Of a DNA stretch of 64,000 nucleotides, positions 23,780 through 42,868 are shown piece after piece (the first letter of the stretch is position 1; each line of letters begins with the position of its first letter). The notes beneath the pieces were generated by a model that did no database searches, was not told where the DNA came from, and saw only the letters and a program-made list of their open reading frames with translations. Source of the DNA: Alphaproteobacteria bacterium (GTDB lineage: Bacteria; Pseudomonadota; Alphaproteobacteria; TMED109); contig JAJDYI010000046.1 of NCBI GenBank assembly GCA_022825235.1, positions 1 through 64,000 of the forward strand, read 5' to 3'. The position numbers and the translations under genes are program-made.

Positions 23780-24113
23780 ATGATCGTCGAGGACCAGACC
23801 GGGGTCGTGGACTTCCTGTCGACCGCCGACGCCCACGGCATCGGCGAGGCGGAAGTCCGCATCAACCGCCGCACGACGCCCTCGATCTACCAGCGGACGG
23901 ATCGGCTGGGACGGGCCGGGCGAGGTCGTCGACTGGATCGTTTGCATGGCGCTGTTCGACGAGGACCGAGTCTTCGACGAGCTCGCGCTCCGTCGGGAGC
24001 TTCCCGCCAGCCTGGTCGACGGGCTGGCGGATGCGGTGGCGCGGTTTTACGACGGCGCCACGATCACGCCAGAGTTCGGCGGCCGCGGCACTCCTTTGCA
24101 AGGTCGCCAATGA
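23780..24113 (+). pseudogene. Remnant of an AAA/aminoglycoside-phosphotransferase-like protein
   Basis: From ATG 23780 the frame reads MIVEDQTGVVDFLSTADAHG, the usual N-terminus of bifunctional APH-like/P-loop proteins, then jumps to RINRRTTPSIY, so about 45 residues are missing. Near 23910 the frame shifts and continues as GEVVDWIVCMALFDED and LPASLVDGLADAVARFYDGA until the stop at 24113. The kinase core and the C-terminal ATPase part are absent. This is a dead fragment formed by an internal deletion, a frameshift and a C-terminal truncation. Confidence 0.7.
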
Positions 24114-24174
24114 TATGTGCATGGCCGCCCATGATATGGTTCAGCCATACGCACTCCCTCCAGGCAACGCTGCG

Positions 24175-24411
24175 ATGAAGACCACGCTCAATCTGAACGA
24201 TCAAGTGCTGCGCCAAGCCAAGGGACGGGCAGCCCGCGACGGCATCACGCTCACGAGATTTGTCGAAGACGCTTTGCGCGCGCGTCTCGCCGACGCGCGC
24301 GCCAGAAAACGAGGCTTCCGTCTGCGACTTGAGACGGTGACCGGAACTTCTCCGCCCAACGTCGACATCGCCGACCGCGACGCGCTCTACGAGGTGATCG
24401 ACCGCGTGTGA
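24175..24411 (+). CDS. Antitoxin of a VapBC-type pair
   Basis: The 78-residue protein begins MKTTLNLNDQVLRQAKGRAA, a ribbon-helix-helix-like start followed by TLTRFVEDALRARL, typical of VapB-type antitoxins. The C-terminal half is basic and then acidic and should wrap the toxin. Its stop overlaps the toxin start by four bases (GTGA), the usual coupled arrangement. An upstream in-frame extension exists but the DNA-binding strand begins at this ATG. Autorepression of the pair by the complex is expected from the family. Confidence 0.85.
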   Translation: MKTTLNLNDQVLRQAKGRAARDGITLTRFVEDALRARLADARARKRGFRLRLETVTGTSPPNVDIADRDALYEVIDRV

Positions 24412-24836
24412 TCGCCGTAGACACCAACATCCTGATCTACGCCCATCGCGGCGAGACTGATCTGCACCGCCCGGCCACCTTGCGCCTCACCGCCTTGGCC
24501 GAGGGTGTGGAGCGGTGGGCTCTTCCGATCTTCTGCGTCACTGAGTTCATGCGGGTGGTCACGCATCGGCGCGTGTTCAATCCGCCGACCACCGTGGCCC
24601 AGGCCGCCACGTTCATCGAGAGGCTCATCGCCGCCCCCAGTTGCGAACTGCTCCAGCCCGGACCCGAGTTTCTCGATCTGCTGATCGCAAGTGTCCGTGA
24701 AGCCGATGCAAGCGGCAATTTGATCTTCGACGCGCAGATCGCAGCGCTCTGTCAGGAGAACGGAATCGACACGATCCTTACCAACGACCGTGACTTCGCA
24801 CGCTTCGAGTCCCTTCAGGCGCACCGACTTGAGTAA
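24408..24836 (+). CDS. PIN-domain toxin of a VapBC-type pair
   Basis: The 142-residue protein starts with GTG and reads MIAVDTNILIYAHRGE, giving the first PIN acidic residue D5. Further acidic ligands are E in CVTEFMRVV (about residue 45), D in LIFDAQIAA and D in ILTNDRDFARF. Four such residues coordinate Mg2+ or Mn2+ in VapC ribonucleases, so this should be an RNase neutralised by the overlapping upstream antitoxin. Length and motif order match the family and nothing is missing. Confidence 0.9.
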   Translation: MIAVDTNILIYAHRGETDLHRPATLRLTALAEGVERWALPIFCVTEFMRVVTHRRVFNPPTTVAQAATFIERLIAAPSCELLQPGPEFLDLLIASVREADASGNLIFDAQIAALCQENGIDTILTNDRDFARFESLQAHRLE

Positions 24837-24961: not shown

Positions 24962-25822
24962 ATGCATGGCGACATGAAATACCAAGTCGCATTGTCTTTT
25001 GCCGGTGAGCAACGACCCTACGTCGAAGAAGTAGCTCATCACCTCGCCGCACGGGGAATCGCGGTGTTCTACGATGACTTTGAAAGGGTGGGGCTCTGGG
25101 GACAGAACCTGGCGGAAGCGTTTCACAAGGCGTTTGAACGGCAATCCGATCTAGTCGTGATGTTCGTGTCCAACGCCTACATCGAAAAGCCGTGGCCAAG
25201 CCATGAGCGGCGGTCGGCACTGAGTCGCATGGTCCGCGACCGAAGCGATTACGTTCTTCCCGTCCGTTTCGACGATACGCCAGTGGATGGGCTGCCCGAG
25301 GACGTTGCCTACCAAGGTGCAGATCAACGTACTCCCGCACAACTTGCCGCGATGATAGCCGAGAAGTTGGGAATTCAGCCCTTCCAGGGCAAGGCTTCCC
25401 AAGTACCTCCACCGAGAATGACATCGCCCACCGGCGAAGCCGTCTTTGACTACAGCAGCTACAACGGGCGCTACGTCATCGGTCTCGGAGAACTGGAATT
25501 CGAGACAATGTGGACCAAAGCAAGCGATACCAACATCCATGTATACAACGAGCCCGCGTCGATCAACGGAGTCGCACTTGCTCGAGGTTGTGCGTCGATT
25601 TCTCAAGTGCTCAACGCTGCATCATTGGATTACACATCGAGGACCCGAACCGTTTCTCTCGGCGGGATTGCGGTATTACGCAATACGAGGGGCTTCTACG
25701 CCGCAATTCACGTACTCGGAATCAAGGATGACAGCCGCCGCGATGACAGGGATGAACTCCGCTTTCGATACGCCATACAGGCTGATGGTTCGGACAACTT
25801 CGCCGAGTTCGTAGACAATTGA
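24962..25822 (+). CDS. TIR-domain protein with C-terminal domain of unknown function
   Basis: The 286-residue protein opens with a TIR domain (KYQVALSFAGEQRPYVEEVA to about residue 135), containing the box-1-like ALSFAGE, FYDDFE and a conserved-position glutamate in SHERRSAL (NADase-type glutamate). Residues about 155-286 form a second beta-rich domain beginning FDYSSYNGRYVIG, not recognised. Bacterial TIR proteins commonly act as NAD-cleaving effectors or signal generators in antiphage immunity; that role is inferred. No partner gene adjoins it in the same direction; the VapBC pair lies 125 bases upstream. A downstream ATG (24974) is an alternative start. Confidence 0.85.
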   Translation: MHGDMKYQVALSFAGEQRPYVEEVAHHLAARGIAVFYDDFERVGLWGQNLAEAFHKAFERQSDLVVMFVSNAYIEKPWPSHERRSALSRMVRDRSDYVLPVRFDDTPVDGLPEDVAYQGADQRTPAQLAAMIAEKLGIQPFQGKASQVPPPRMTSPTGEAVFDYSSYNGRYVIGLGELEFETMWTKASDTNIHVYNEPASINGVALARGCASISQVLNAASLDYTSRTRTVSLGGIAVLRNTRGFYAAIHVLGIKDDSRRDDRDELRFRYAIQADGSDNFAEFVDN

Positions 25823-26686: not shown

Positions 26687-27157
26687 CTAGTTGACCACGA
26701 TCTCGCCCTTCGCGTTCACCCGGTAATACGAGGCCAGTCCTTTAAGGAAATGTTCCGAGTGCACAATTGTCTCTGTCTCGCAATACGCCACCAGCGTGAT
26801 CCCGTTGGTCCACACATGCAGACCCACTTCGGAGCAAACGCTGTGAAAGCCGCTCCCGCCCCAATACAAGCGAGCGGTCTCGGTCGCCGGGTCTTCCTCA
26901 TAGCCGACCTCGTCGGAGAGATTGGTACTCGTCTGCTCCCTGTCGTCGTTGTCGTCGCTGACCCGGCACCACGCCGTCATATCGGCATGTTCCGACGTCA
27001 CATCCACGCTGAATCGGTCACAATCCTCGTGGAGCTTCCCCGTGCGGGGCTCGACGGTCTGCTGGGCCGACGCGGGGCCGGCCAGCACCGTAGCAATGCC
27101 CAGCGCGGTGACCGCACCAATGAGAACTCTTGTCGCTGAAACGTGATTGGCACTCAT
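26687..27157 (-). CDS. Secreted cyanovirin-N homology (CVNH) protein, copy 1
   Basis: The 156-residue protein starts at MSANHVSATRVL with a signal peptide cut near PASAQQ. The mature part resembles one CVNH domain: TGKLHEDCDRFSV, then MTAWCRVSD, SGFHSVCSEV and VAYCETE give the four spaced cysteines and the paired C-x-W/A-x-C-R pattern of this sugar-binding fold. It ends with YYRVNAKGEIVVN, shared in kind with copies 2 and 3 (33927 and 34569). Export to the periplasm or outside and glycan binding are inferred from the fold. It has no operon partner; transposase debris lies downstream and a kinase fragment upstream. Confidence 0.75.
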   Translation of the reverse strand: MSANHVSATRVLIGAVTALGIATVLAGPASAQQTVEPRTGKLHEDCDRFSVDVTSEHADMTAWCRVSDDNDDREQTSTNLSDEVGYEEDPATETARLYWGGSGFHSVCSEVGLHVWTNGITLVAYCETETIVHSEHFLKGLASYYRVNAKGEIVVN

Positions 27158-27466
27158 GAGCCTCCCCCTTGTCGCCGTTGGCACACTGCCGATGAAGCGC
27201 GCAGCCATCACCCAGTGTGATATCGCGGGCTCAACCACTCTCAGGGCAGCCGGACCGGCACGGCACGCGGATTCCGCGCAGCGCATTCCGGCTGGCTATC
27301 AAGGCTTCGTAATCGGCCTCCAGATCATGGTACAGCCCTTGCAGTATATCAAGATCGTAACTTTCCGCAAGGTTATTGCAGATGATTCCGCTATCAGTAG
27401 TACATTAGAGGATAAGATAGGCGGCGATACTCTCTGAAATATATCAATAAGGATCCAGTACATATC
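27158..27466. other. AT-rich intergenic region between CVNH gene and kinase fragment
   Basis: The part from about 27330 to 27466 is AT-rich, like the block before the intact kinase gene, and contains ATCGTGACAGTGA at the start of the fragment. No gene is recognised. Confidence 0.35.
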
Positions 27467-28100: not shown

Positions 28101-29354
28101 TTATGAACGCAGCGCCGCGATCGGTTCGAGCCGCGACGCCTTGTGGGCCGGGTAGAGACCGAACGCCACGCCGATGCCCGAGGAGACGCCTACGCCCATG
28201 ACCATGGCGGTCACCGACACGGAAAAGGGCCAACCCGCGAACAGGCAGATGCCCAAGGATGCCGCGGCGCCCGCCAGCACGCCGAGCGCACCCCCCAGAA
28301 GGCAAAGCACGACCGATTCGGTGACGAATTGCTGGCGGATGTCTCTCCGGCGTGCGCCGACCGCCCGTCTGAGTCCGATCTCCGCACGCCTCTCGCTCAC
28401 CGAGATGAGCATCAGGTTCATGACCCCGACCCCGCCGACGATCAGCGAGATGCTGCCGACCGCAGCGAGCAGCAGCGTGAACAGCTGCCCCTGGTTGCGC
28501 ATCCGGTCGATGAGTTGTTGCGCAGCCGTAACCTCCATCCGGAGGCCCGGGACACGATGGTGGAAGTAGGAGACCACAGCCTCCGTCGCCGCCTCGGGAA
28601 GCACACCCGGGGCGATGCGGGCGACGATGCGGCGGAACGGCGTATCGGTGGCAACGCGCCGCGCGGCTTCGAGCGGAATAAACACGGTGTCGTCGGGTCT
28701 GAGATCCTGCCCGAAACGCCGGGTCTCGGCCGGACGAAGCACCCCGACGACACTGTACAGGCGCCCGTTGAGCCGAATATTCTCCCCGAGCACCGTGCCG
28801 GCGCCGGCACGGCTGATCGCGCGCGCCACGCCATCGCCCAGCACGCAGAAGCGCTGGTGCAGGTCCAGGTGGGATACGAATCGCCCGGCCGCCAGCTCAA
28901 GGCCGTTGATGCCGGCCAGGGATTCGGTGGCTCCCAGCACGATCGGCTGGTTCGGGATCGCCTTGCCCGCGTACATGGGGTCCCCGCCCACGTCCAGCCA
29001 TGTCGCGGCGGCCACGATCTCGGGCGTCTCGAGCACCAGGTCGCGGACGTCGGCGGCGGAGAAGTTCAGCGTCCTTCCCCGGACTCTCGTGTGCACCCGA
29101 CGGATCGCCAGGATATCGGTCCCGAGCCCTTCGAACTGCTTCAGCGCCTCTCCCTTCACGACCTCCCCGGTCGAGACCATCGCAATCACGGAGCCGATGC
29201 CCACCACGATGCCGACCAGGGCAAGAATGCTGCGGCCGCGAATGCTCGCGAGACTGGCCAGGGCCTCCTTGACGTTTGTCCTCGACAGCACGGTGACGGC
29301 CGCTCCGCTAGCCCTGATCAGGTGTCGTGGGTACGCGCCCCTCTTCGTGGACAA
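28101..29354 (-). CDS. MacB-type ABC transporter permease
   Basis: The 417-residue protein has the FtsX/MacB layout: an N-terminal membrane segment after NVKEALASLASIRGR (about residues 38-62), a periplasmic MacB_PCD-like domain (about 65-270) and three C-terminal membrane segments (about 295-320, 345-370 and 380-400) with NLMLISVSERRAEIGLRRAV. It should transmit ATP-driven motion to the tripartite pump rather than form a classical channel. It overlaps the ATPase gene by 47 bases and is last in a four-gene operon. A start a little downstream, near VTVLSRTN, is possible. Confidence 0.92.
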   Translation of the reverse strand: MSTKRGAYPRHLIRASGAAVTVLSRTNVKEALASLASIRGRSILALVGIVVGIGSVIAMVSTGEVVKGEALKQFEGLGTDILAIRRVHTRVRGRTLNFSAADVRDLVLETPEIVAAATWLDVGGDPMYAGKAIPNQPIVLGATESLAGINGLELAAGRFVSHLDLHQRFCVLGDGVARAISRAGAGTVLGENIRLNGRLYSVVGVLRPAETRRFGQDLRPDDTVFIPLEAARRVATDTPFRRIVARIAPGVLPEAATEAVVSYFHHRVPGLRMEVTAAQQLIDRMRNQGQLFTLLLAAVGSISLIVGGVGVMNLMLISVSERRAEIGLRRAVGARRRDIRQQFVTESVVLCLLGGALGVLAGAAASLGICLFAGWPFSVSVTAMVMGVGVSSGIGVAFGLYPAHKASRLEPIAALRS

Positions 29355-30006
29355 GCCCGTCCTCGACGCGAGCGCGGCGGCGGCACCGCTCTGAAACTTC
29401 CGGGCTGTGGGTCACGATGACGACGGCCATGCGCTGTTCGGAACAGAGGCGCTCGAACATGTCCATGATCTCGGCGCCGGTGTCGGGGTCGAGCGCACCG
29501 GTCGGTTCGTCGGCGAGCACGACCGAGGGTTCGCCGATGATCGCCCGCGCAACTGCGACGCGCTGCTGCTGGCCACCGGAAAGCTGGTTCGGTCGGTGGC
29601 CGGCCCGATCCGCCATGCCGACGCGGTCCAGCGCCTCGAGGGCCAGCCGCCTGACCCGTCCTTCGGGTTCCCGCCGGTAGATCAGTGGAAGTCCGGCATT
29701 CTGCGCCGCCGTCAGGCGCGGCAGCAGGTGAAAGGACTGGAACACGAACCCGATGCTGGCATTCCGCACGGCCGAGACCTCGTCGTCGTTCATCCCGGAC
29801 GCCTCCCGGCCGTTCAGGAAATAGGCGCCGCTTGTCGGGCGGTCCAGCAGCCCGATGATGTTCATGAGCGTCGACTTGCCGCACCCCGAAGGACCCATGA
29901 TCGACAGCAGGTCGCCCTCGTGCACGTCAAGCGAGACGCCGTTGAGAACCTCCACCGTCACGGGGCCGACCCGATAGCTCTTGCGGATGTCTTCCAGCCG
30001 GATCAT
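29308..30006 (-). CDS. MacB-type ABC transporter ATP-binding protein
   Basis: The 232-residue ATPase has all ABC motifs: Walker A GPSGCGKST (about 39-47), Q-loop in FVFQSFHLLPRL, signature LSGGQQQRVAVARA, Walker B VVLADEPTGALD and the switch histidine in VIVTHSPEV. It is of the LolD/MacB class. Its ATG overlaps the stop of the PAS-fused membrane fusion protein as ATGA, so the two are coupled. It energises the efflux or secretion complex formed with the neighbouring permease, adaptor and TolC-type channel. Confidence 0.95.
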   Translation of the reverse strand: MIRLEDIRKSYRVGPVTVEVLNGVSLDVHEGDLLSIMGPSGCGKSTLMNIIGLLDRPTSGAYFLNGREASGMNDDEVSAVRNASIGFVFQSFHLLPRLTAAQNAGLPLIYRREPEGRVRRLALEALDRVGMADRAGHRPNQLSGGQQQRVAVARAIIGEPSVVLADEPTGALDPDTGAEIMDMFERLCSEQRMAVVIVTHSPEVSERCRRRARVEDGLVHEEGRVPTTPDQG

Positions 30007-31820
30007 CCGGGACGCCTGCCCGGCCCATCCCCGAGAACCACCTCGTCGCCCGCTTCGAGACCTCGGGTGACATGCACCGAATCGCGGGTCGTCGCGCCGG
30101 TCTCGACCTCGATGCTCCGGACCTGTCCGGTGGCACGGTCCAGAACGCGGACCGACAGGGAGCCGCTTCGGCGCTGCACCGCGTGAAGTGGAACGAGCAG
30201 GGCACGCGGCATGTCCTGGATCACGACCTCGACGTCGACGGACATCCCGAGCCGCAGCAACTGCCGCACCTCCGGATCGAACGCGTCCAGTGCCGCGGCG
30301 AAGCTGAAGGACGCCGGCTGGCGCCGAGACAGGGCATCGACGGCCTGCGGGGACACGCTGCTGAGGGCGCCGGCGAGCGCGACGCCCGGAAAGGCGTCCC
30401 CGGTGACCGTGACCGGCTGCCCGACGCGCAGTTTCGCGACTTCCACCTCGTCGACGAATCCCTCGACCGACAGGGAATCGATATCCGAAACCCTCAACAG
30501 GAGCTGCCCGGGAGACACGGGCGTCCCCTCGAGGAGGCGCCCCGCCCCGCCCGACTGCCCCGCGAATCCGGAGCGTTCCTGCGCCGGTTGCATCACGATC
30601 CCCGATACCGGCGACCGCACCGTCGCGTGCGTCATCGCGGTCTCGATCTCCCGGAGCCGCTCCTCCACGGTCTGCAACTCCAGGCTCGCGACCTCCCTGG
30701 CCGCCGCCCCGCCCCGCTCCCGCACCGCCTGGAGATTGACTTCGGCGGCACTCTGCTCGGCCTGCAGGTTCTCGTACCGTTCCATCGCCGTTTCGTGCTC
30801 CAGTGCGGGGATGACCCCGCTCTCGAGCAGAAAGGCGGTTTGCTCGATCTTCCGCTGCTGGCTGTCGAGGGCGCGGCGGGACCGGTCGAGGGCACGGCGG
30901 GCGGCCAGCGTCTCCGGGCCGTTCTCCCAGTTGTCCAACTCCTGGACGCGCTTGATGGCTTCGATGTATTGCGCCCGGGTCGCGCGGTGTTCCTGGGCAA
31001 TCGTGGAGGTGTCGAGCTCGAGCAGTACCTGTCCTTGCTCGACTTCGTCGCCGTACTGGAAATGCAACGCGCCCACCGTGCCGGGGATCGGGCTGATGAT
31101 GTTCGTCTCCTGCCGGGCCGCAAGCCGTCCGGGGAATGACACCGCGGAAAGCAGGTGCTGCGGCTGGACGATCATGGTGGCGAGCGGCTCGCCGCCCTCT
31201 GCCGCCGCCGTCGTTACCGTCGCCGTCGAGGCCGCCACGACCGCTCCCCGGGTCCCCTGCCAGGCGTAGTAGCCGGCACCGAGGCAAATCGCGAGCACGG
31301 TCCCCGTCGCGATCGCCTTGATCACCTGCACGCGTCGGAGCGTGGACGACAACTCGCGGTTGCTCTCCTCGATCTGGCGGTAGGCCGTCTGCAGTTCCGC
31401 ATACTGCTCCTTGACCTGCTCACCCAGCCGAATCTCGGTCTCACGGAGCTCCTGGATCTCCGTGATGTCCGAGAACACCGCGACGATGCCGGTCCTCCGG
31501 CTGTCCGGACCGCTGCCCGCATGCAGCCAGGATGTGCTGATGTTGATCAGGCGCCGCTCGCCACCGGTCCGGATCTCGATCGCCTTGCGGCCGACATTGC
31601 GCTTCTCGCCGACCGCGTCGAAAACGGTTTCGGTGAACGCGTCCAGGCCCTCCAGCGCCACGAAGGCCTCGCCGAAACTGCGGCCCTCGACCTGACTCCT
31701 CTCCATGCCGAGAATGCGCGCGGCGGCGGCGTTGACGGACACGACCTTGCCGTCCAGCGCGACCGAGACGACGCCGTCGTCCATGTCGTCCAGAATGGTG
31801 TCGTGAACGAGCGCATCCAT
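30003..31820 (-). CDS. PAS-domain-fused HlyD/MacA-type membrane fusion protein
   Basis: The 605-residue protein has an unusual order. A cytoplasmic PAS domain (about 5-120) with GVVSVALDGKVVSVNAAAAR and FSDITEIQELRE is followed by a coiled coil (121-165), one membrane segment (167-187, ATGTVLAICLGAGYYAW), then a periplasmic adaptor: lipoyl-like half-motif (230-270, ISPIPGTVGALHFQYGDEVE), a long alpha-hairpin (about 275-400) and beta-barrel and membrane-proximal domains to the end. Classical adaptors have no PAS part. The ATG at 31820 is chosen because it opens the PAS helix, five bases after the TolC gene stop. A sensing role that gates the pump is inferred. Confidence 0.92.
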   Translation of the reverse strand: MDALVHDTILDDMDDGVVSVALDGKVVSVNAAAARILGMERSQVEGRSFGEAFVALEGLDAFTETVFDAVGEKRNVGRKAIEIRTGGERRLINISTSWLHAGSGPDSRRTGIVAVFSDITEIQELRETEIRLGEQVKEQYAELQTAYRQIEESNRELSSTLRRVQVIKAIATGTVLAICLGAGYYAWQGTRGAVVAASTATVTTAAAEGGEPLATMIVQPQHLLSAVSFPGRLAARQETNIISPIPGTVGALHFQYGDEVEQGQVLLELDTSTIAQEHRATRAQYIEAIKRVQELDNWENGPETLAARRALDRSRRALDSQQRKIEQTAFLLESGVIPALEHETAMERYENLQAEQSAAEVNLQAVRERGGAAAREVASLELQTVEERLREIETAMTHATVRSPVSGIVMQPAQERSGFAGQSGGAGRLLEGTPVSPGQLLLRVSDIDSLSVEGFVDEVEVAKLRVGQPVTVTGDAFPGVALAGALSSVSPQAVDALSRRQPASFSFAAALDAFDPEVRQLLRLGMSVDVEVVIQDMPRALLVPLHAVQRRSGSLSVRVLDRATGQVRSIEVETGATTRDSVHVTRGLEAGDEVVLGDGPGRRPG

Positions 31821-31825
31821 GTCCG

Positions 31826-33328
31826 CTACTCGAGGGCGCCCTCGACCTCGACCTCCCAGGTGTCGAGGACCGTGCCCGCCGTCCGGTCGAGTGTGCTCCA
31901 CGCATTCAGGTACCCGATCCTGGCGTCGAGCTCGTTGACCTGCGCGTTCACGAGGTCGGTCTGAAAGGTGGCCAGCCTGAAATTGGACGTCAGGCCCAGC
32001 TTCAGCTTGCCGTCCTCGATCTCGAGCTGCTGCCGGGCGAGGTCCAGCGCCTGGCGCGCCAACTCCATCTGCGTCAGCCCCAGCTCGACCGCGCTGACCG
32101 CGTTGCGCAGGCCGGCATCCAGCTCGCGGGCTTCGGTCGCGAGCGATCGCTCGGCCTTCCGCAGATCAAGCCGGGCAGCGATGTGCGCCCGCTTCGCGGC
32201 CTGCGTCGCGGCATCCCCCAGAGGGATGGTGAGCGCCACGCCGGCGGTGTAGATCCCCTTGTCCGCGTTGCCTCCCAGGTCCCGCAGGCCGGCGCCGAAG
32301 GAGGTGCCCTGTCCGCCGAACGCGGCCCGGGCCTCGAACGAGAGCTCCCAGAGCGTGCCGTCCGCGGCCTGGGCCAGCCGTATCGCCGCGCTTCGCAGGT
32401 TCAGGTGCGCCTTCAGGTAGTCCGCGTTGCGCTCCCGCGCGAGCGCCCGGATGCTCTCCAGATCGGGCCGCAGCGGCTCGACGGTCAGGGTCTGGACGGG
32501 CAGGACCCGGACATCGCCCTCCAGGTCGAGGAGGACGTTCAGGTCCAGCCCGGCGTCTGCCACGCGATTCCGGCTGCGGACGACTTCCAGCTCCCGCCTC
32601 GCGATGTCGGTCTCCGTCTGGACGATGTCCGTCCGCGCCATCCTGCCGGTATCGACCAGGAGTTGGTTGACCTCGAGCGTCTCCCTGGCCCGTTGCAGTG
32701 CGCTCTCGTTGATCTTCAACTGCAGGTCAGCCCGAATCGCCGCGCGGTACGCCTTGATCACCGAAGTGATCACGTCCATCGCGGCGGCCCTGAGATCCAG
32801 GACATGACGCTCCTCCTCGATCCGCGCCAGCCTGACCGGTGCGAGACCGACATCGAGCCCCGCACCGCGCAGCAGGGGATGGGAGAAGGCGAGTTCCACG
32901 CTGGTATCGTGCGCCTCGTCCGGTCCGCCCGAATGGCCGAGCCGCGCGGTCCAGGCCGGTCGCACGCTGACCGCTCCGCCCGTGGGCAGGCGCATGGTCA
33001 CGCGTGGCCCCGCGCCGAAGGTGTAGCCGCCGGTATCCGCGCCCCGGTCGGTGCGATAGCCGGCGGTCGCGGCCTCCAGGCTCACCTTCGGCAGGAAACT
33101 CTCTTCCGACTGCTCAAGGTCAAATCTGTGGAGGGTTCGGTCGAGCCTGGCATCGACGAGCGCGGGGTTGTCCCGGAGCGCCCGCGCTACCGCCTCGGCA
33201 AGGGTGAGCCGGATGGTCTCCGGCGGCGCAGCGTCGACCTCGGCGCCGGACGCGCCGGCCCAACTCTGTCCGGCGAGCACGACGGCAAGGCAGGCCATGA
33301 AGACACGCGGGCGCTGGTCACGCCCCAT
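31826..33328 (-). CDS. TolC-family outer-membrane efflux protein
   Basis: The 500-residue protein starts at MGRDQRPRVFMACLAVVL with a signal peptide cut near GASGA. The mature part has two repeated OEP halves of long helices, including LTLAEAVARALRDNPALVDA, QTETDIARRELEVV, LRSAAIRLAQA and QQLEIEDGKLKLGLTSNFRL, typical of TolC-type trimeric channels. It is first in an operon with the PAS-fused adaptor, ATPase and permease, so all parts of a tripartite pump are encoded together. An in-frame ATG upstream (33373) would bury the signal peptide. Confidence 0.93.
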   Translation of the reverse strand: MGRDQRPRVFMACLAVVLAGQSWAGASGAEVDAAPPETIRLTLAEAVARALRDNPALVDARLDRTLHRFDLEQSEESFLPKVSLEAATAGYRTDRGADTGGYTFGAGPRVTMRLPTGGAVSVRPAWTARLGHSGGPDEAHDTSVELAFSHPLLRGAGLDVGLAPVRLARIEEERHVLDLRAAAMDVITSVIKAYRAAIRADLQLKINESALQRARETLEVNQLLVDTGRMARTDIVQTETDIARRELEVVRSRNRVADAGLDLNVLLDLEGDVRVLPVQTLTVEPLRPDLESIRALARERNADYLKAHLNLRSAAIRLAQAADGTLWELSFEARAAFGGQGTSFGAGLRDLGGNADKGIYTAGVALTIPLGDAATQAAKRAHIAARLDLRKAERSLATEARELDAGLRNAVSAVELGLTQMELARQALDLARQQLEIEDGKLKLGLTSNFRLATFQTDLVNAQVNELDARIGYLNAWSTLDRTAGTVLDTWEVEVEGALE

Positions 33329-33362: not shown

Positions 33363-33519
33363 CTTGAACACAACTCCCCGCCCGTGTGTCATGAACGTAC
33401 GGCTATTGACACATTATGCGAGAATCCGGCTGCATGAAAGTGCTTGAACGTGTCCTATCGGGGTACAACAGGCAGGAAAGTGCTCTACAGGTTATTGAAG
33501 AAGAGCGGGCGTCGGGGAC

Positions 33520-33926: not shown

Positions 33927-34493
33927 TTATCTGAACTCCAGCGCGCCTTCCGTGCTCACCTGGTAGCACTCATTCAGGTCCAGAGATGTCGCCAGCGCCG
34001 CCGTGCGCGAGCATTCGATTGGCCACACCTCCTCGTTGCAGTTCTCGCTGGGCTGGTAGACGCACTCCGCCTTCAGCACGACGCGGGAGTAGTCCGCCTC
34101 GAGCTGGACATCGAAGCAATACTGCTGGAAGTGGCCCCTGTGGCAATGCAGGACGCCCCAGTCGTCACTGCCGACGGTGAGGTCAATGCTCGTCCGTTCC
34201 CTGTCGTAGCTGAAGTCGCTGACCCGGCACCACGCCCGCAGCTGCATGTCATGGTCGGTCTCCTGCAGGCTGAAGCGCTGGCAGTCATCGTGCAGGTTCC
34301 CCGTCCTGCCGGCCACCAGGCCGCCCTCGTCCTGAAGAAGGTCCGAAATGTCCCCCTGGTCGGGGATCTCGTCAACGTCGGCCACACCGGAGTGGTCGTC
34401 AGCCGAGGCCGGGGCGGCCATCAGGACCGCCGCGAGGCCCAGCACCGCGACCATGGAGACCGCGCCTCTCCTGCCAAATCGCCTTGCATTCAT
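33927..34493 (-). CDS. Secreted cyanovirin-N homology (CVNH) protein, copy 2
   Basis: The 188-residue protein starts with ATG behind GGAGGAG and has a signal peptide (MNARRFGRRGAVSMVAVLGL, cut near PASADD). An acidic linker (residues 33-62) leads to a CVNH-like domain: TGNLHDDCQRFSLQ, LRAWCRVSD, RTSIDLTVG, FQQYCFDVQL and LKAECVYQ, with an extra cysteine pair (ENCNEEVWPIEC) inserted in the last strand. It ends YQVSTEGALEFR. The family binds high-mannose glycans in known members; the ligand here is unknown. The gene follows copy 3 with 75 bases between them, so both may be in one transcript. Confidence 0.78.
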   Translation of the reverse strand: MNARRFGRRGAVSMVAVLGLAAVLMAAPASADDHSGVADVDEIPDQGDISDLLQDEGGLVAGRTGNLHDDCQRFSLQETDHDMQLRAWCRVSDFSYDRERTSIDLTVGSDDWGVLHCHRGHFQQYCFDVQLEADYSRVVLKAECVYQPSENCNEEVWPIECSRTAALATSLDLNECYQVSTEGALEFR

Positions 34494-34568: not shown

Positions 34569-35087
34569 CTACCTGACCTCGAGTTCGCCGGCCGAGTTCA
34601 CCCGATAGTGCGGGGCCAGCTCCAGCGAAGAGACCTTCATGACGTAGGTCTCTCTCATGCACTCCCCGGTAAACTCGTCACGGAAAGAACACCGGACGCC
34701 GGCGATGCACTCGGCCGTCATCTTCAGGCCGTTGACATGCGACAGGAATTCGACGTCACGGCAATCTCGATGGAAGTCGCGCCCGCCCCACTGCAAGCGT
34801 CCGTCCCCTCCCTTGCCGATGTCGCTCGCCAGGTCGACGCTCGTCTGCTTCCTCTCGGTGTTGCCGTCACTGATCCGGCACCACGCCCGAAGCTCGAACT
34901 TGCTGGATCCCCAGACCGAACTGAACCGCTCGCAGTCCTGGTGGATTTCCCCGGTCCGTGCTTCCACAGGCGAATCCTGGCCTGCTGCCGGCCCGGCCAA
35001 CGCTGCCGCGATGCTCAGGGCGGCAATCATGGCCAAGGGCCCGCCCCGCTTCTGCCCGTTGCCGACACCCATACATTGTTCACGCAT
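34569..35087 (-). CDS. Secreted cyanovirin-N homology (CVNH) protein, copy 3
   Basis: The 172-residue protein has a signal peptide (LAMIAALSIAAALAGPAAGQ, cut near AAGQD) and a CVNH-like domain: TGEIHQDCERFSS, LRAWCRISD, QTSVDLASDIG, GRLQWGGRDFHRDCRDV and MTAECIAGVRC, the fit to the family being best here because of the LxWGGxxFxxxC core. Extra cysteines (RCSFRDEFTGEC) match the insertion in copy 2. It ends HYRVNSAGELEVR. An AT-rich region upstream (35100-35500) should hold its promoter. Confidence 0.8.
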   Translation of the reverse strand: MREQCMGVGNGQKRGGPLAMIAALSIAAALAGPAAGQDSPVEARTGEIHQDCERFSSVWGSSKFELRAWCRISDGNTERKQTSVDLASDIGKGGDGRLQWGGRDFHRDCRDVEFLSHVNGLKMTAECIAGVRCSFRDEFTGECMRETYVMKVSSLELAPHYRVNSAGELEVR

Positions 35088-37523: not shown

Positions 37524-38483
37524 ATGCAGCCACCAGGTAAGGCACACCGCGACGGCATTAGCATCATGCAGCTTACCGCCATGTTCCCTACGGAAGAAGC
37601 GGCGGAAACATGGTTTGAGGAGGTGCGGTGGGGTGCTACAAGTCGCCACTGCGCCAAATGCGGTTCCACCAATACCTACGAGGTAAAGCGCCGCAAACCG
37701 CAGCCCTACCGTTGCCGTAGCTGCAAGAGCTATTTCAGCGTGCGCACGGGCAGTGCGCTGGCCGAGACTAATTTGCCACTACGCACCTGGCTACATGCCA
37801 TCTACCTTTACATCACCAGCCTTAAATCTGTTAGCAGCATGAAACTGCACCGGGACCTGGGTATTACGCAGAAGACGGCGTGGTTTCTGTTGCACCGTTT
37901 GCGCACCGCATGGGACGGGGATCCGGCGGACTTGTTTACTGGACCTGTTGAAGTTGACGAAACGTATATGGGTGGGAAGGCCCGCAACAAGTCCAACCAC
38001 CAGCGCCGACAGGCAAAGGCAACGGGTAATGAGGTGGCACCCAAGACAGCCGTTGTGGGTGCAAAGGACCGCTGCATACGCAAGGTGGCCGCCCGGGTGG
38101 TGGCCGCGCCCAATATGGCCGAGTTGCTGGGTTTAGTGACGAAAACGGTTGGTGCAGACGCAGTAGTGTATACGGATGAGGCCAAGGCCTACCAGGGCCT
38201 GCCGCGCAGCCACGGCACGGTAAAGCATGGTGCAGGGGAATACGTGCGCGGCGATGTGCACACCAACGGTGTCGAGTCGTTTTGGAGCATGCTAAAGCGT
38301 GCCCACATGGGCACCTTCCACCACTTGTCCCCCAAGCACCTGCACCGTTACGTGGCGGAGTTCGCGGGACGGCACAACGTGCGCAACCAGGACACCATCA
38401 AGCAGATGCAGGCAGTGGTTGCTGGTACGCTGGGTAAACGGCTCATGTATGCGGAACTAGTGGCAAAGCGCCTCAAGCTATGA
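37524..38483 (+). CDS. IS1595-family transposase
   Basis: The 319-residue protein has an N-terminal zinc ribbon with C43/C46 and C64/C67 (CAKC, CRSC), a helical DNA-binding part, and an ISXO2-like DDE domain: D in VEVDETYMGGK (about 144), D in VVYTDEAKAYQGL and the last acidic/Asn motif in HTNGVESFWSMLKRAH. All expected catalytic blocks are present, so the element may still be active. It lies within the inverted repeats at 37456 and 39490. Its 3' end overlaps the convergent passenger gene by six bases. Confidence 0.95.
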   Translation: MQPPGKAHRDGISIMQLTAMFPTEEAAETWFEEVRWGATSRHCAKCGSTNTYEVKRRKPQPYRCRSCKSYFSVRTGSALAETNLPLRTWLHAIYLYITSLKSVSSMKLHRDLGITQKTAWFLLHRLRTAWDGDPADLFTGPVEVDETYMGGKARNKSNHQRRQAKATGNEVAPKTAVVGAKDRCIRKVAARVVAAPNMAELLGLVTKTVGADAVVYTDEAKAYQGLPRSHGTVKHGAGEYVRGDVHTNGVESFWSMLKRAHMGTFHHLSPKHLHRYVAEFAGRHNVRNQDTIKQMQAVVAGTLGKRLMYAELVAKRLKL

Positions 38484-39741: not shown

Positions 39742-42279
39742 TCACCAGTGCAATGCGCCGCGCAGCATCAGACCGTGCTCGGGCCGGTCGTCGTTGGCGG
39801 CCTCGTGCAAGTTGCCTTCAACGCTCACGCTCGCAGCCGGTACAAGCTGCCAGCGTGCGCCCATGCGCCACGACCGCGCGCCTTCGCCCGCGAGCCCGAG
39901 CCCCGCATAGGGCGTTACCACGCCCAGGCCGGGCGCCGTGCCGAGACCGTAGCCGACCTCCGCGTTCAGGCGCATCCGGTTGTCCGGCAACGCGCCGGCA
40001 GTGACGCCGCTCTCCCACAACCGCTGCACGCCGCTAGCCGTCGGGCCCCACGCCGGCTCCACCGCGAGCGCAAGCCCTCGTCCCGATGCGTCCGGAGCGA
40101 TCCGCAGCAGGCCGCTCACGCCCGTCTCCTCGTAGTCGCCGCTGTGGCTGAGCAGGGTCCGGACCCGGCCCACGACGGTCAGCCCGGACTCCGCGTCCTC
40201 ATAGCGCAAGGCACCCCCGGCCTCGATACTGCTGCCGGTCTCGCCGTCTCCGCCGTCGTTTCGCAATCCGAACTCAAGCGAGGGCGCGAACGTCGCGCCC
40301 GAGGCGAGCTTCTGGACGTGCTCCCCTTCCAATATCAGCCGCTGCCGGCTGGCACTCAGCGACATGTTCTCGATGGTCGCGGAGCCTTCGACGTCGGCCC
40401 AGGTGAAGGCCACCTCGCCCTTGAGGCTCAGGTTCGTGGTGCCGCCCCCGATCATCTCGTCGCTGGACAGCAGCGGCCCGCTCACGCCCGCCGCCACCAT
40501 CCGCTGCGTCAGGTCGCTCGCCTGCGTGCCCGCCGAGTCATCGTCGAGCTCCACCTCGCCCGAGCCCATGCCGCCCATGGCCCGCAGGTTCATGCCGCCC
40601 GGCATCTGCCAACCCACGTAGGGGTTGATGCTCGTCAGGCTCGTCGTGAGTTCGCCCGATGCGTCGGAGGCCGAGTAGTCCACCGTCCCTTGCGCATGTG
40701 ACACCGCGACACCCGCGAGCATGTCCGCGCCCAGCTTTGTATCGATCCCGAGACTGGCGCCCGTCACGTCGCCGTCATAGACCACCGACTGCGCGTTGCC
40801 GCCGGAGAAGCTTCGCCAGTCCCCGCTGCCCCAGAACGTCAGGTCTCCGAAGGGGCCCCCGCCTCCGTCGCCGGCCGCGTTGAGTGCCAACGTGAAGGAC
40901 GAACCCGCCAGCAGCCGGCCGAGGTCGGCCGTGCCGTTCCCCAGCGAACGTCCGTGCGCGAGCAGGGCATCGGGGAGGGTGAAGGCGCCGCCGACGCTGA
41001 ATCCCGTGGCGGGCGGGGCGCCCGAGGTCGCCCGCTCGATGCGGCCCGAGACGGCGTCGACCGTGCTCGCCGTCATGGCCCGCATGACCTGGGGCAGCAC
41101 CGACTTGACCACCGAGCTCCGGCTGGCAGCGATCACCTCGGGCGACCTCAGATAGTATCCCGATCCGACGATCAGGTTGAGCGGGATGACGCGGCCGAGG
41201 GAGTGGATTTCACCGGTGAACTCGCGGGCGTAGCCCACCTTGGGAATGTCGGCGCTGTCGCTGTCGTCAGCGGGATCGTCCCAGAAGTACTCCACGAAGC
41301 CGCCTTCCGGGCTGCTTTTCGCCGCTTCGATGACCTGCGGGAGAACGAGCCTCCCGGTCACGGCGTCACGGACGGTGGGCACCAGCGGTCTGAGCTCGAA
41401 CCGGTCCGGAAATGCGGCGTGAAACAGGATCGCGTTGCTGTTCAGATCCAGGATGTAGAGGCACACGGAACCGTGCCGCCAGGGCCCATGCGGGTTCCGC
41501 AGGGCGACCCTGACCTTCGAGTAATCCGCCGGATCACTGCTCGTCTGGTGCTCGAGAAAGAACTCCCCCGCCTGGGTGACGAAGGCTTTCAGGGTTGCAC
41601 GGTCCACCACGTCCATGGCCGTGACGGACGGGTCGCCGTGATCGATGGCTTCCTCAGCTACGTGCGATGCGTCGAGATCAAAGCCGGCCAGCAGCACGAT
41701 TGGGAGCCCGGTATGGGGCGCCGTATAGGTGGCGGCATAACCGGAAGCACCCGGCACATCGGGCGCGTTGAACGCGCCACCATTCCCGGCCGCCGCGTCA
41801 GCGAAAGCGGCCAAGGCAGTGGCAGGGCTCGCCAGATCGGCCGGGTTGATCCCCAGAGCTCGAAGGATCGATTGATAAATCAGAGGGTTGAGTGGCCTCC
41901 CCGACAATGCCATGGTCTTCGCGTGAATGAATATCCGGTCGGGCGCCAGTTGCACGAGGTAGGTGGAACCGGAACGGTAGGGACTTCCTTCCTGCCGGAG
42001 GAGACAGCCCATGTACACCGCCTCTTCCGTGGTGTTGTTGACTCTCTGGCTCAACTGATCCCGGACCGCAAGTACGAACGCCATCAGGCTGGCGCTCCCG
42101 TCCTCCACCTGCTGGGCCGTCACGGCCGGAGCCGGCGGAGGAGTCACGCCGGCGGAAAGTGGGCAGCCCCCCTGCATCTGCGCCGAGGCGTGGCGGGCAC
42201 CGGAAACAACGCCGGAGAGCACGAGCAGTGCGGTACAGAGAAGCATCGATGCCGTGGAGACAAACCTTCCCGTCTTCAT
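39742..42279 (-). CDS. Autotransporter with Cache-type sensor-like passenger
   Basis: The 845-residue protein has a signal peptide (residues 1-34, cut near HASAQ). The passenger (about 50-390) looks like two Cache-like modules: the first ends in GYAATYTAP and PIVLLAGFDL (about 180-202), the second in GGFVEYFWDDP, KVGYAREFTG and LNLIVGSGYYL (327-377), the usual final strands of small-molecule-binding Cache domains. Residues about 550-845 are an autotransporter beta-barrel ending RGALHW. Cache domains normally occur on receptors in the inner membrane, so display through an autotransporter barrel is unusual. ATG 42279 is chosen because the signal peptide starts there. Confidence 0.85.
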   Translation of the reverse strand: MKTGRFVSTASMLLCTALLVLSGVVSGARHASAQMQGGCPLSAGVTPPPAPAVTAQQVEDGSASLMAFVLAVRDQLSQRVNNTTEEAVYMGCLLRQEGSPYRSGSTYLVQLAPDRIFIHAKTMALSGRPLNPLIYQSILRALGINPADLASPATALAAFADAAAGNGGAFNAPDVPGASGYAATYTAPHTGLPIVLLAGFDLDASHVAEEAIDHGDPSVTAMDVVDRATLKAFVTQAGEFFLEHQTSSDPADYSKVRVALRNPHGPWRHGSVCLYILDLNSNAILFHAAFPDRFELRPLVPTVRDAVTGRLVLPQVIEAAKSSPEGGFVEYFWDDPADDSDSADIPKVGYAREFTGEIHSLGRVIPLNLIVGSGYYLRSPEVIAASRSSVVKSVLPQVMRAMTASTVDAVSGRIERATSGAPPATGFSVGGAFTLPDALLAHGRSLGNGTADLGRLLAGSSFTLALNAAGDGGGGPFGDLTFWGSGDWRSFSGGNAQSVVYDGDVTGASLGIDTKLGADMLAGVAVSHAQGTVDYSASDASGELTTSLTSINPYVGWQMPGGMNLRAMGGMGSGEVELDDDSAGTQASDLTQRMVAAGVSGPLLSSDEMIGGGTTNLSLKGEVAFTWADVEGSATIENMSLSASRQRLILEGEHVQKLASGATFAPSLEFGLRNDGGDGETGSSIEAGGALRYEDAESGLTVVGRVRTLLSHSGDYEETGVSGLLRIAPDASGRGLALAVEPAWGPTASGVQRLWESGVTAGALPDNRMRLNAEVGYGLGTAPGLGVVTPYAGLGLAGEGARSWRMGARWQLVPAASVSVEGNLHEAANDDRPEHGLMLRGALHW

Positions 42280-42868
42280 CCCAAGATCCCCTCGTCCCGT
42301 ACCGCAAACATTTTCTTGGCGACCTTGTGACGACGGTCGCTGGCCATACATCGTATTCGGATCGTAACCCAGTGACAAAGAGTCGGTCAGCGATCTACCG
42401 AACAGTGATGATTTGGGGGATAGCCGCGCGAGCTAATGTCAATAACTATCTCTTTAGCATGACATATTGTGATATTATGTATCCTGTCGGTGACTTACGG
42501 CCTGCATCCTCAAACAATGGGGCTTTTGACGAGGAGGATGCGGTGCGCGACGGCGCGCCGGGGTTCCTGGCGCTCGTCGAGGACATCCGGCGCCTGCAGG
42601 CTGAAGTGAGTCTCTCCTCCGCGCCGACTTCACGACCGTGAATGCCATTGAGGCCATCCTGTCCGCTCATATGTCGGAAACTCCTCACTAAGTATTTGTC
42701 CATATACTCTTTATTGAGAGTTCTGCTCTTCCCCCTTCCACCGCTGTTCAGTCGTTGGCAAACAACCGGCAAACACTTGGGGCGCCTACTACTGCGCGCG
42801 CACGCCGCCGCTGTCGAGCGCCGCTCCGCGCTCGGGCGGGCACGCCTGCAGGTCATTGCCCGTAGCGG
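42280..42868. other. Intergenic region upstream of the Cache-autotransporter
   Basis: The AT-rich stretch around 42400-42490 should hold the promoter and contains the AATGTCAATAAC motif. Between 42500 and 42640 a frame reads GFLALVEDIRRLQAEVSL, possibly a gene remnant. A second AT-rich patch lies near 42690. Confidence 0.35.
42435..42446. promoter_or_regulatory. AATGTCAATAAC motif upstream of the Cache-autotransporter
   Basis: Exact copy of the 12-mer at 19685-19696; here it lies 156 bases before the start codon. Confidence 0.3.

Follow-up and report, generated by a model that had tools for sequence, protein, structure and literature searches.

The gene at positions 30003 to 31820 on the minus strand of the window (the whole 64,000-nucleotide stretch of DNA analysed here) raises the question whether the periplasmic adaptor of an export pump can itself carry a cytoplasmic sensor, and what such a pump might sense and export. 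Its frame runs uninterrupted from the ATG at 31820 to the stop at 30003 and encodes 605 amino acids. A PAS domain (residues 8-121, positions 31458-31799; Pfam PAS_9 1.3e-9 and PAS 4.4e-9, the latter with 38.7 bits against a gathering score of 27) is followed by a conserved coiled-coil signalling helix with the motif L..E...ELQ.AY..E..N (residues 122-166, 31323-31457), a single transmembrane helix with R/K at its cytoplasmic side in the sequence (residues about 169-187, 31260-31316) and a periplasmic adaptor (residues 209-598, 30027-31196), which comprises an alpha hairpin (272-397) as well as lipoyl, barrel and membrane-proximal domains. The Pfam families HlyD_D23, HlyD_3 and Biotin_lipoyl_2 match at residues 228-508. 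The protein passes the model TIGR01730 for periplasmic adaptors of the HlyD/RND_mfp subfamily (124.3 bits against a curated cut-off of 94.9) and falls below the cut-off of the MacA equivalog NF008606 (61.5 against 342 bits). An AlphaFold2 model built on 37 relatives (mean pLDDT 86.8) displays a PAS fold and a complete adaptor with all four domains; between them, a single helix spans residues 120-187 without interruption and takes in both coil and membrane helix. The PAS part comes closest to CitA's cytoplasmic PAS domain (Z 14.3, rmsd 1.8, 103 residues), while the adaptor part is closest to MacA in MacAB-TolC (Z 19.5 over 328 residues). The sequence-only reading had joined a cytoplasmic PAS domain, a coiled coil and one membrane helix to a complete MacA/HlyD-type adaptor. 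Frame, Pfam matches, model and structural neighbours all bear this out, and the structure prediction that it had proposed as a check of chain continuity returned a single helix linking PAS and adaptor.

A fusion of this kind could be simulated by a wrongly assigned start codon. No ATG occurs between codons 39 and 216, and the internal GTG and TTG candidates have no clear ribosome site. In the window, the PAS ATG lies 5 nt past the stop codon of the preceding tolC gene. Of 34 loci, the window included, 28 have a PAS start that overlaps the stop codon of tolC or is at most 20 nt away from it; the overlap is exactly 4 nt in 16. In close pairs, dN/dS is about 0.1-0.45 in the PAS part, similar to the adaptor, and mostly even lower in the coil, so that both PAS and coil are under purifying selection. 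Mean column entropy amounts to 1.80 for PAS, 1.64 for the coil (the lowest of all segments) and 1.78 for the adaptor. Moreover, PAS distances correlate with adaptor distances (r 0.75, Mantel p 0.001), in agreement with a single ancient fusion. If translation began at an internal start, some 500 nt of PAS in every operon would be conserved yet untranslated. Hence, a real start just before the membrane helix, which the sequence-only reading had named as a way in which it could fail, is disfavoured by the coupling of the start to tolC, by a PAS conservation equal to that of the adaptor and by dN/dS in PAS. The other such way, a frame break between PAS and adaptor, is excluded by at least about 40 unbroken homologues, which also rule against a fusion created during assembly. 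The PAS-helix-TM-adaptor protein is thus confirmed as one real, conserved chain maintained by selection. The sole split locus, L050:2314-4143, holds the gene in two frames of 308 and 293 aa and represents either a pseudogene or an assembly error. Separately, the paralogue on contig C74 (L032:8617-8803) has no in-frame ATG, GTG or TTG upstream of PAS; its first in-frame start is located inside PAS, indicating a non-standard start or a sequencing error.

The search for the PAS-TM-HlyD architecture that had been suggested from the sequence yielded those at least about 40 homologues, which are full-length and spread over several phyla. Four further full-length paralogues, 35-41% identical, occur in the source genome, and three others among the 97 genomes searched (source genome counted in) carry the gene. 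A pattern scan of genomes of 84,980 species found at least 36 full-length loci, three of which are those of the same three relatives. According to their record titles, these loci belong to Alpha- and Gammaproteobacteria, Geobacteraceae, Desulfobacterales, Deltaproteobacteria, Nitrospinae and one bin labelled Acidobacteriota; the operon is also present in an isolate, Trichlorobacter thiogenes (L045). At the same time, the architecture is rare. With three candidates scored per genome, no full-length PAS match was obtained in 397 other genomes drawn from the phylum, and PAS-length matches were found in 8 of 345 genomes of the T. thiogenes phylum. A phage origin was rejected, as a scan of viral contigs revealed no relative. 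Among plasmid records, none covers 80% of the query, the matches being to the adaptor only.

The genes around the fusion define the pump to which it belongs. Upstream on the same minus strand, a TolC-family outer-membrane channel (31826-33328; Pfam OEP 1e-33) ends 5 nt before the adaptor start; its own start is taken as the ATG at 33328 within a frame that is open from a TTG at 33373. Downstream, a MacB/LolD-type ATPase with intact Walker A, LSGGQ and Walker B motifs in its translation (29308-30006, minus strand) starts in an ATGA overlap with the adaptor stop, followed by a MacB-type permease without ATPase domain (28101-29354, minus strand; MacB_PCD and FtsX, Pfam 1.5e-30 and 3.4e-18). The order tolC, PAS-adaptor, ATPase and permease is kept at nearly all loci. 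By Pfam, the combination of MacB_PCD and FtsX in the permease with a LolD/MacB-type ATPase corresponds to a Type VII ABC (MacB-like) transporter, so the assignment of the fusion to a MacB-type pump has held up. NF007826 is the top NCBIfam match for both the ATPase and the permease chain, yet each scores below its cut-off, which is set for a fusion protein. Scans for promoters and terminators gave results at chance level. An IS1595-type transposase gene lies near the operon (37524-38483, plus strand), and the window further encodes an autotransporter beta-domain protein of 878 aa (39742-42378, minus strand), a TIR-domain protein (24962-25822, plus strand; Pfam TIR_2 7.7e-17) and, adjoining the latter, a VapBC-like pair (24031-24836) that was judged by eye.

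Compared to known systems, the assembly most closely resembles MacAB-TolC of E. coli, a Type VII ABC tripartite pump with which it shares the adaptor fold, the MacB_PCD-FtsX permease, the LolD/MacB-type ATPase and the TolC-like channel. It differs in that PAS and a signalling helix take the place of MacA's short cytoplasmic tail, the ATPase is a chain of its own and not part of the permease, tolC lies inside the operon, and the proteins fall below the NCBIfam equivalog cut-offs for MacA and MacB. A split ATPase and permease with an adaptor is presumably also found in split MacB-type peptide exporters, among them the darobactin exporter DarCDE. The window ATPase is strongly matched by the DarD model, but the DarC and DarD cut-offs are both missed, and we know of no PAS domain described in exporters of the DarCDE type. 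The sensor-TM-adaptor class as such has a precedent in Alg44 of Pseudomonas, a PilZ-TM-adaptor protein acting as c-di-GMP receptor in post-translational control, which likewise places a sensor in the cytoplasm, crosses the membrane by one TM region and has a periplasmic domain homologous to membrane-fusion proteins (PMC3815931). There, however, the sensor is PilZ and the partner is the alginate polymerase Alg8 instead of an ABC pump. The generalization that adaptors usually have no cytoplasmic sensor therefore stands for most of them, but has to be qualified for the already described Alg44 (PMC3815931). On the sensor side, receptors of the CitA/S-helix kind share the CitA-type PAS fold and a helical linker of about 40 residues between sensor and output (PMC1592074), although their output is a kinase or cyclase and here it is a pump adaptor. 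The text of PMC1592074, which deals with the signalling helix, mentions neither HlyD nor membrane-fusion proteins, efflux or transporters. No paper joining PAS to a membrane-fusion protein or periplasmic adaptor, or describing PAS or GAF fused to the adaptor of an ABC pump, was found in the open-access literature; as subscription journals were outside the scope of the search, this is only a weak indication that none exists.

What the cytoplasmic part does can be approached from its natural variants. In one genome (G264, L103), a GAF domain (3.2e-12) replaces PAS, giving a GAF-helix-TM-adaptor that belongs to this adaptor clade and sits in an operon of the same make-up. In two others (L113 and L115), PAS is absent with the coil motif LRKAYLEVE kept, and a quick tree places both inside the PAS clade (99% support). 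Further members (L097-L102, L104 and L105) carry no sensor, and the tree requires four changes of the PAS label. Given the swap of GAF for PAS and the loss of PAS with retention of the coil, the cytoplasmic region acts like a sensor that can be exchanged. Export as such does not require a sensor, as the PAS-less members presumably work and some of them adjoin small secreted proteins. Ligand control of the pump would be consistent with the exchange of PAS for GAF and, by analogy, with findings on MacA, as PAS is attached exactly at the part that MacA needs for stimulating MacB, through a helix of the type by which receptors couple sensor and output (PMC1592074). In E. coli, MacA lacking its cytoplasmic region or TM helix is compromised in stimulating the MacB ATPase, and a pneumococcal adaptor without cytoplasmic region and TM helix fails to stimulate (PMC5985334).

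Two other roles for PAS and coil have to be weighed against such gating. Both might form a constitutive module for dimerisation or assembly which aids the adaptor hexamer (a trimer of dimers) or ATPase docking and transmits no signal. No heme or FAD signature was detected in PAS, where His, Cys and Trp each stay below half of the 37 rows in every column; PAS could hence be a passive dimeriser. Of the cytoplasmic segments, the coil is the best conserved, and it outlasts PAS in L113 and L115. We nevertheless consider this role unlikely, since PAS is kept across phyla at a conservation equal to that of the adaptor and since the one lineage that substitutes it uses GAF, another small-molecule sensor and not an arbitrary dimeriser. 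Alternatively, the signal could travel from outside to inside, in that periplasmic cargo or the state of the pump acts through the helix and lets PAS recruit a cytoplasmic partner, e.g. a kinase or a sigma-54 activator, which adjusts expression. Genes for STAS and HATPase_c_2 proteins upstream of tolC in Geobacter-type loci, sigma-54 activators nearby and the ability of BceAB-type relatives to sense via their transporter (PMC5985334) are in line with this, whereas other loci share no such regulator and the scan of window proteins did not turn one up next to the operon, which makes the outside-in route quite improbable. In Trichlorobacter-type loci (L043:240-1003), the genes preceding tolC encode STAS and RsbW-like HATPase_c_2 proteins, the kinase frame overlapping tolC, and a sigma-54 activator gene is found near the operon at L043:8790-10016.

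Candidates for the cargo were found directly beside the operon. Two genes encode small signal-peptide proteins with a CVNH (cyanovirin-N homology) domain, located at 33927-34493 (minus strand; Pfam CVNH 1.4e-7) and 34569-35087 (minus strand; 4.6e-7), whose scores of 32.7 and 31.0 bits pass the PF08881 gathering score of 24.5. A third candidate at 26687-27286 (minus strand), also a small signal-peptide protein, has no Pfam match at 0.001 but aligns with the two CVNH proteins and is regarded as their divergent relative. All three surround the operon on its own strand. The gene at 33927-34493 was the sole CVNH match in the search of the whole genome. Of 27 genomes, 3 gave a CVNH match, which in two cases lies within about 6 kb of the operon.

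Other loci adjoin small signal-peptide proteins with six conserved cysteines in the pattern C..W..S.AS..C ... C...C ... C ... C, a family that is represented in neither Pfam nor NCBIfam and often forms tandem arrays (L032:12782-14898, L027:8438-8785, L064:678-1019 and others). When a profile trained without four genomes was run on those four, 18 of 32 six-Cys genes lay within 6 kb of a PAS-adaptor gene, where 1.2% would be expected from the share of sequence that this distance covers; counted by contig, linkage was seen on 8 of 20 contigs (p 4e-11). Among the 97 relatives, only two possess the family, and both carry the PAS-adaptor (p 0.0013). Its modelled fold (pLDDT 86) retrieves CVNH proteins in all of the top 14 structural rows (Z 4.4-6.0 over about 50 residues; next row 3.5), and neither hhalign profile-profile comparison nor Pfam nor a PDB sequence search connects the family to CVNH. 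The model is suggestive of a fold like half of cyanovirin-N, a structural likeness only and one of middling Z. More generally, small frames with signal peptide and cysteines, called by a simple home-made signal-peptide rule, occur at 0.121 per kb in PAS-adaptor flanks compared to 0.009 in control loci, and 17 of 43 loci have a detectable gene of this kind within 3 kb. Other lineages place small Calx-beta or Lcl_C proteins beside their PAS-adaptor operons, the secreted Calx-beta proteins being located at L072:13171-14243, L053:161-1350 and L055:2925-4114.

The small Sec-dependent, disulphide-bonded protein STII is exported from the periplasm by E. coli MacAB-TolC (PMC5985334, PMC8277102), which makes small signal-peptide neighbour proteins natural candidates for cargo. 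These Sec-exported neighbours are likely what the pump carries. Against this, the true cargo may be something else, such as a drug, lipid or siderophore, with the secreted lectins merely sharing the neighbourhood. MacAB also exports macrolides (PMC5985334), the candidates vary by lineage (CVNH, six-Cys, Calx-beta, Lcl_C) and six-Cys orphans exist away from operons; linkage far above chance in the held-out genomes and the excess of cysteine-bearing frames in the flanks over controls, however, lead us to regard a different cargo as rather unlikely. The linkage of PAS-adaptor operons to CVNH or six-Cys secreted proteins is new here; the sequence-only reading had missed this likely cargo.

Taken together, architecture, conservation, operon, selection, the GAF swap and the linkage to small secreted proteins make it somewhat probable that the locus encodes an exporter of the MacAB-TolC type for small periplasmic proteins, in which the adaptor doubles as a cytoplasmic sensor and gates the ATPase. 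Such a four-part exporter, made up of TolC-like channel, adaptor, separate LolD/MacB-type ATPase and MacB-type permease, would push small, disulphide-bonded, Sec-exported proteins, here cyanovirin-like lectins, from the periplasm across the outer membrane. Two PAS domains may pair via the conserved helix, which continues into the membrane helix without a break, and this pair would sense a small molecule or a cytoplasmic state such as redox. A change in the PAS dimer would repack the helix, be relayed along it next to the ATPase and thereby set the adaptor's stimulation of ATP hydrolysis and, with it, export. Only tentatively do we go as far as proposing a one-component, ligand-gated secretion system in which the MacB-type adaptor itself is the receptor, PAS and GAF are exchangeable on an ATPase-switching helix, and the system is dedicated to small disulphide-bonded cyanovirin-like lectins.

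Control of tripartite pumps is generally attributed for the most part to gene expression. In the present system, the adaptor part known to stimulate the ATPase has a sensor covalently attached to it. The occurrence of adaptors with PAS, with GAF and with neither constitutes a natural swap experiment by which the way the adaptor's membrane helix triggers MacB becomes directly testable, and the linked cyanovirin-like proteins provide candidates for the natural cargo in a family of pumps about whose native substrates little is known.
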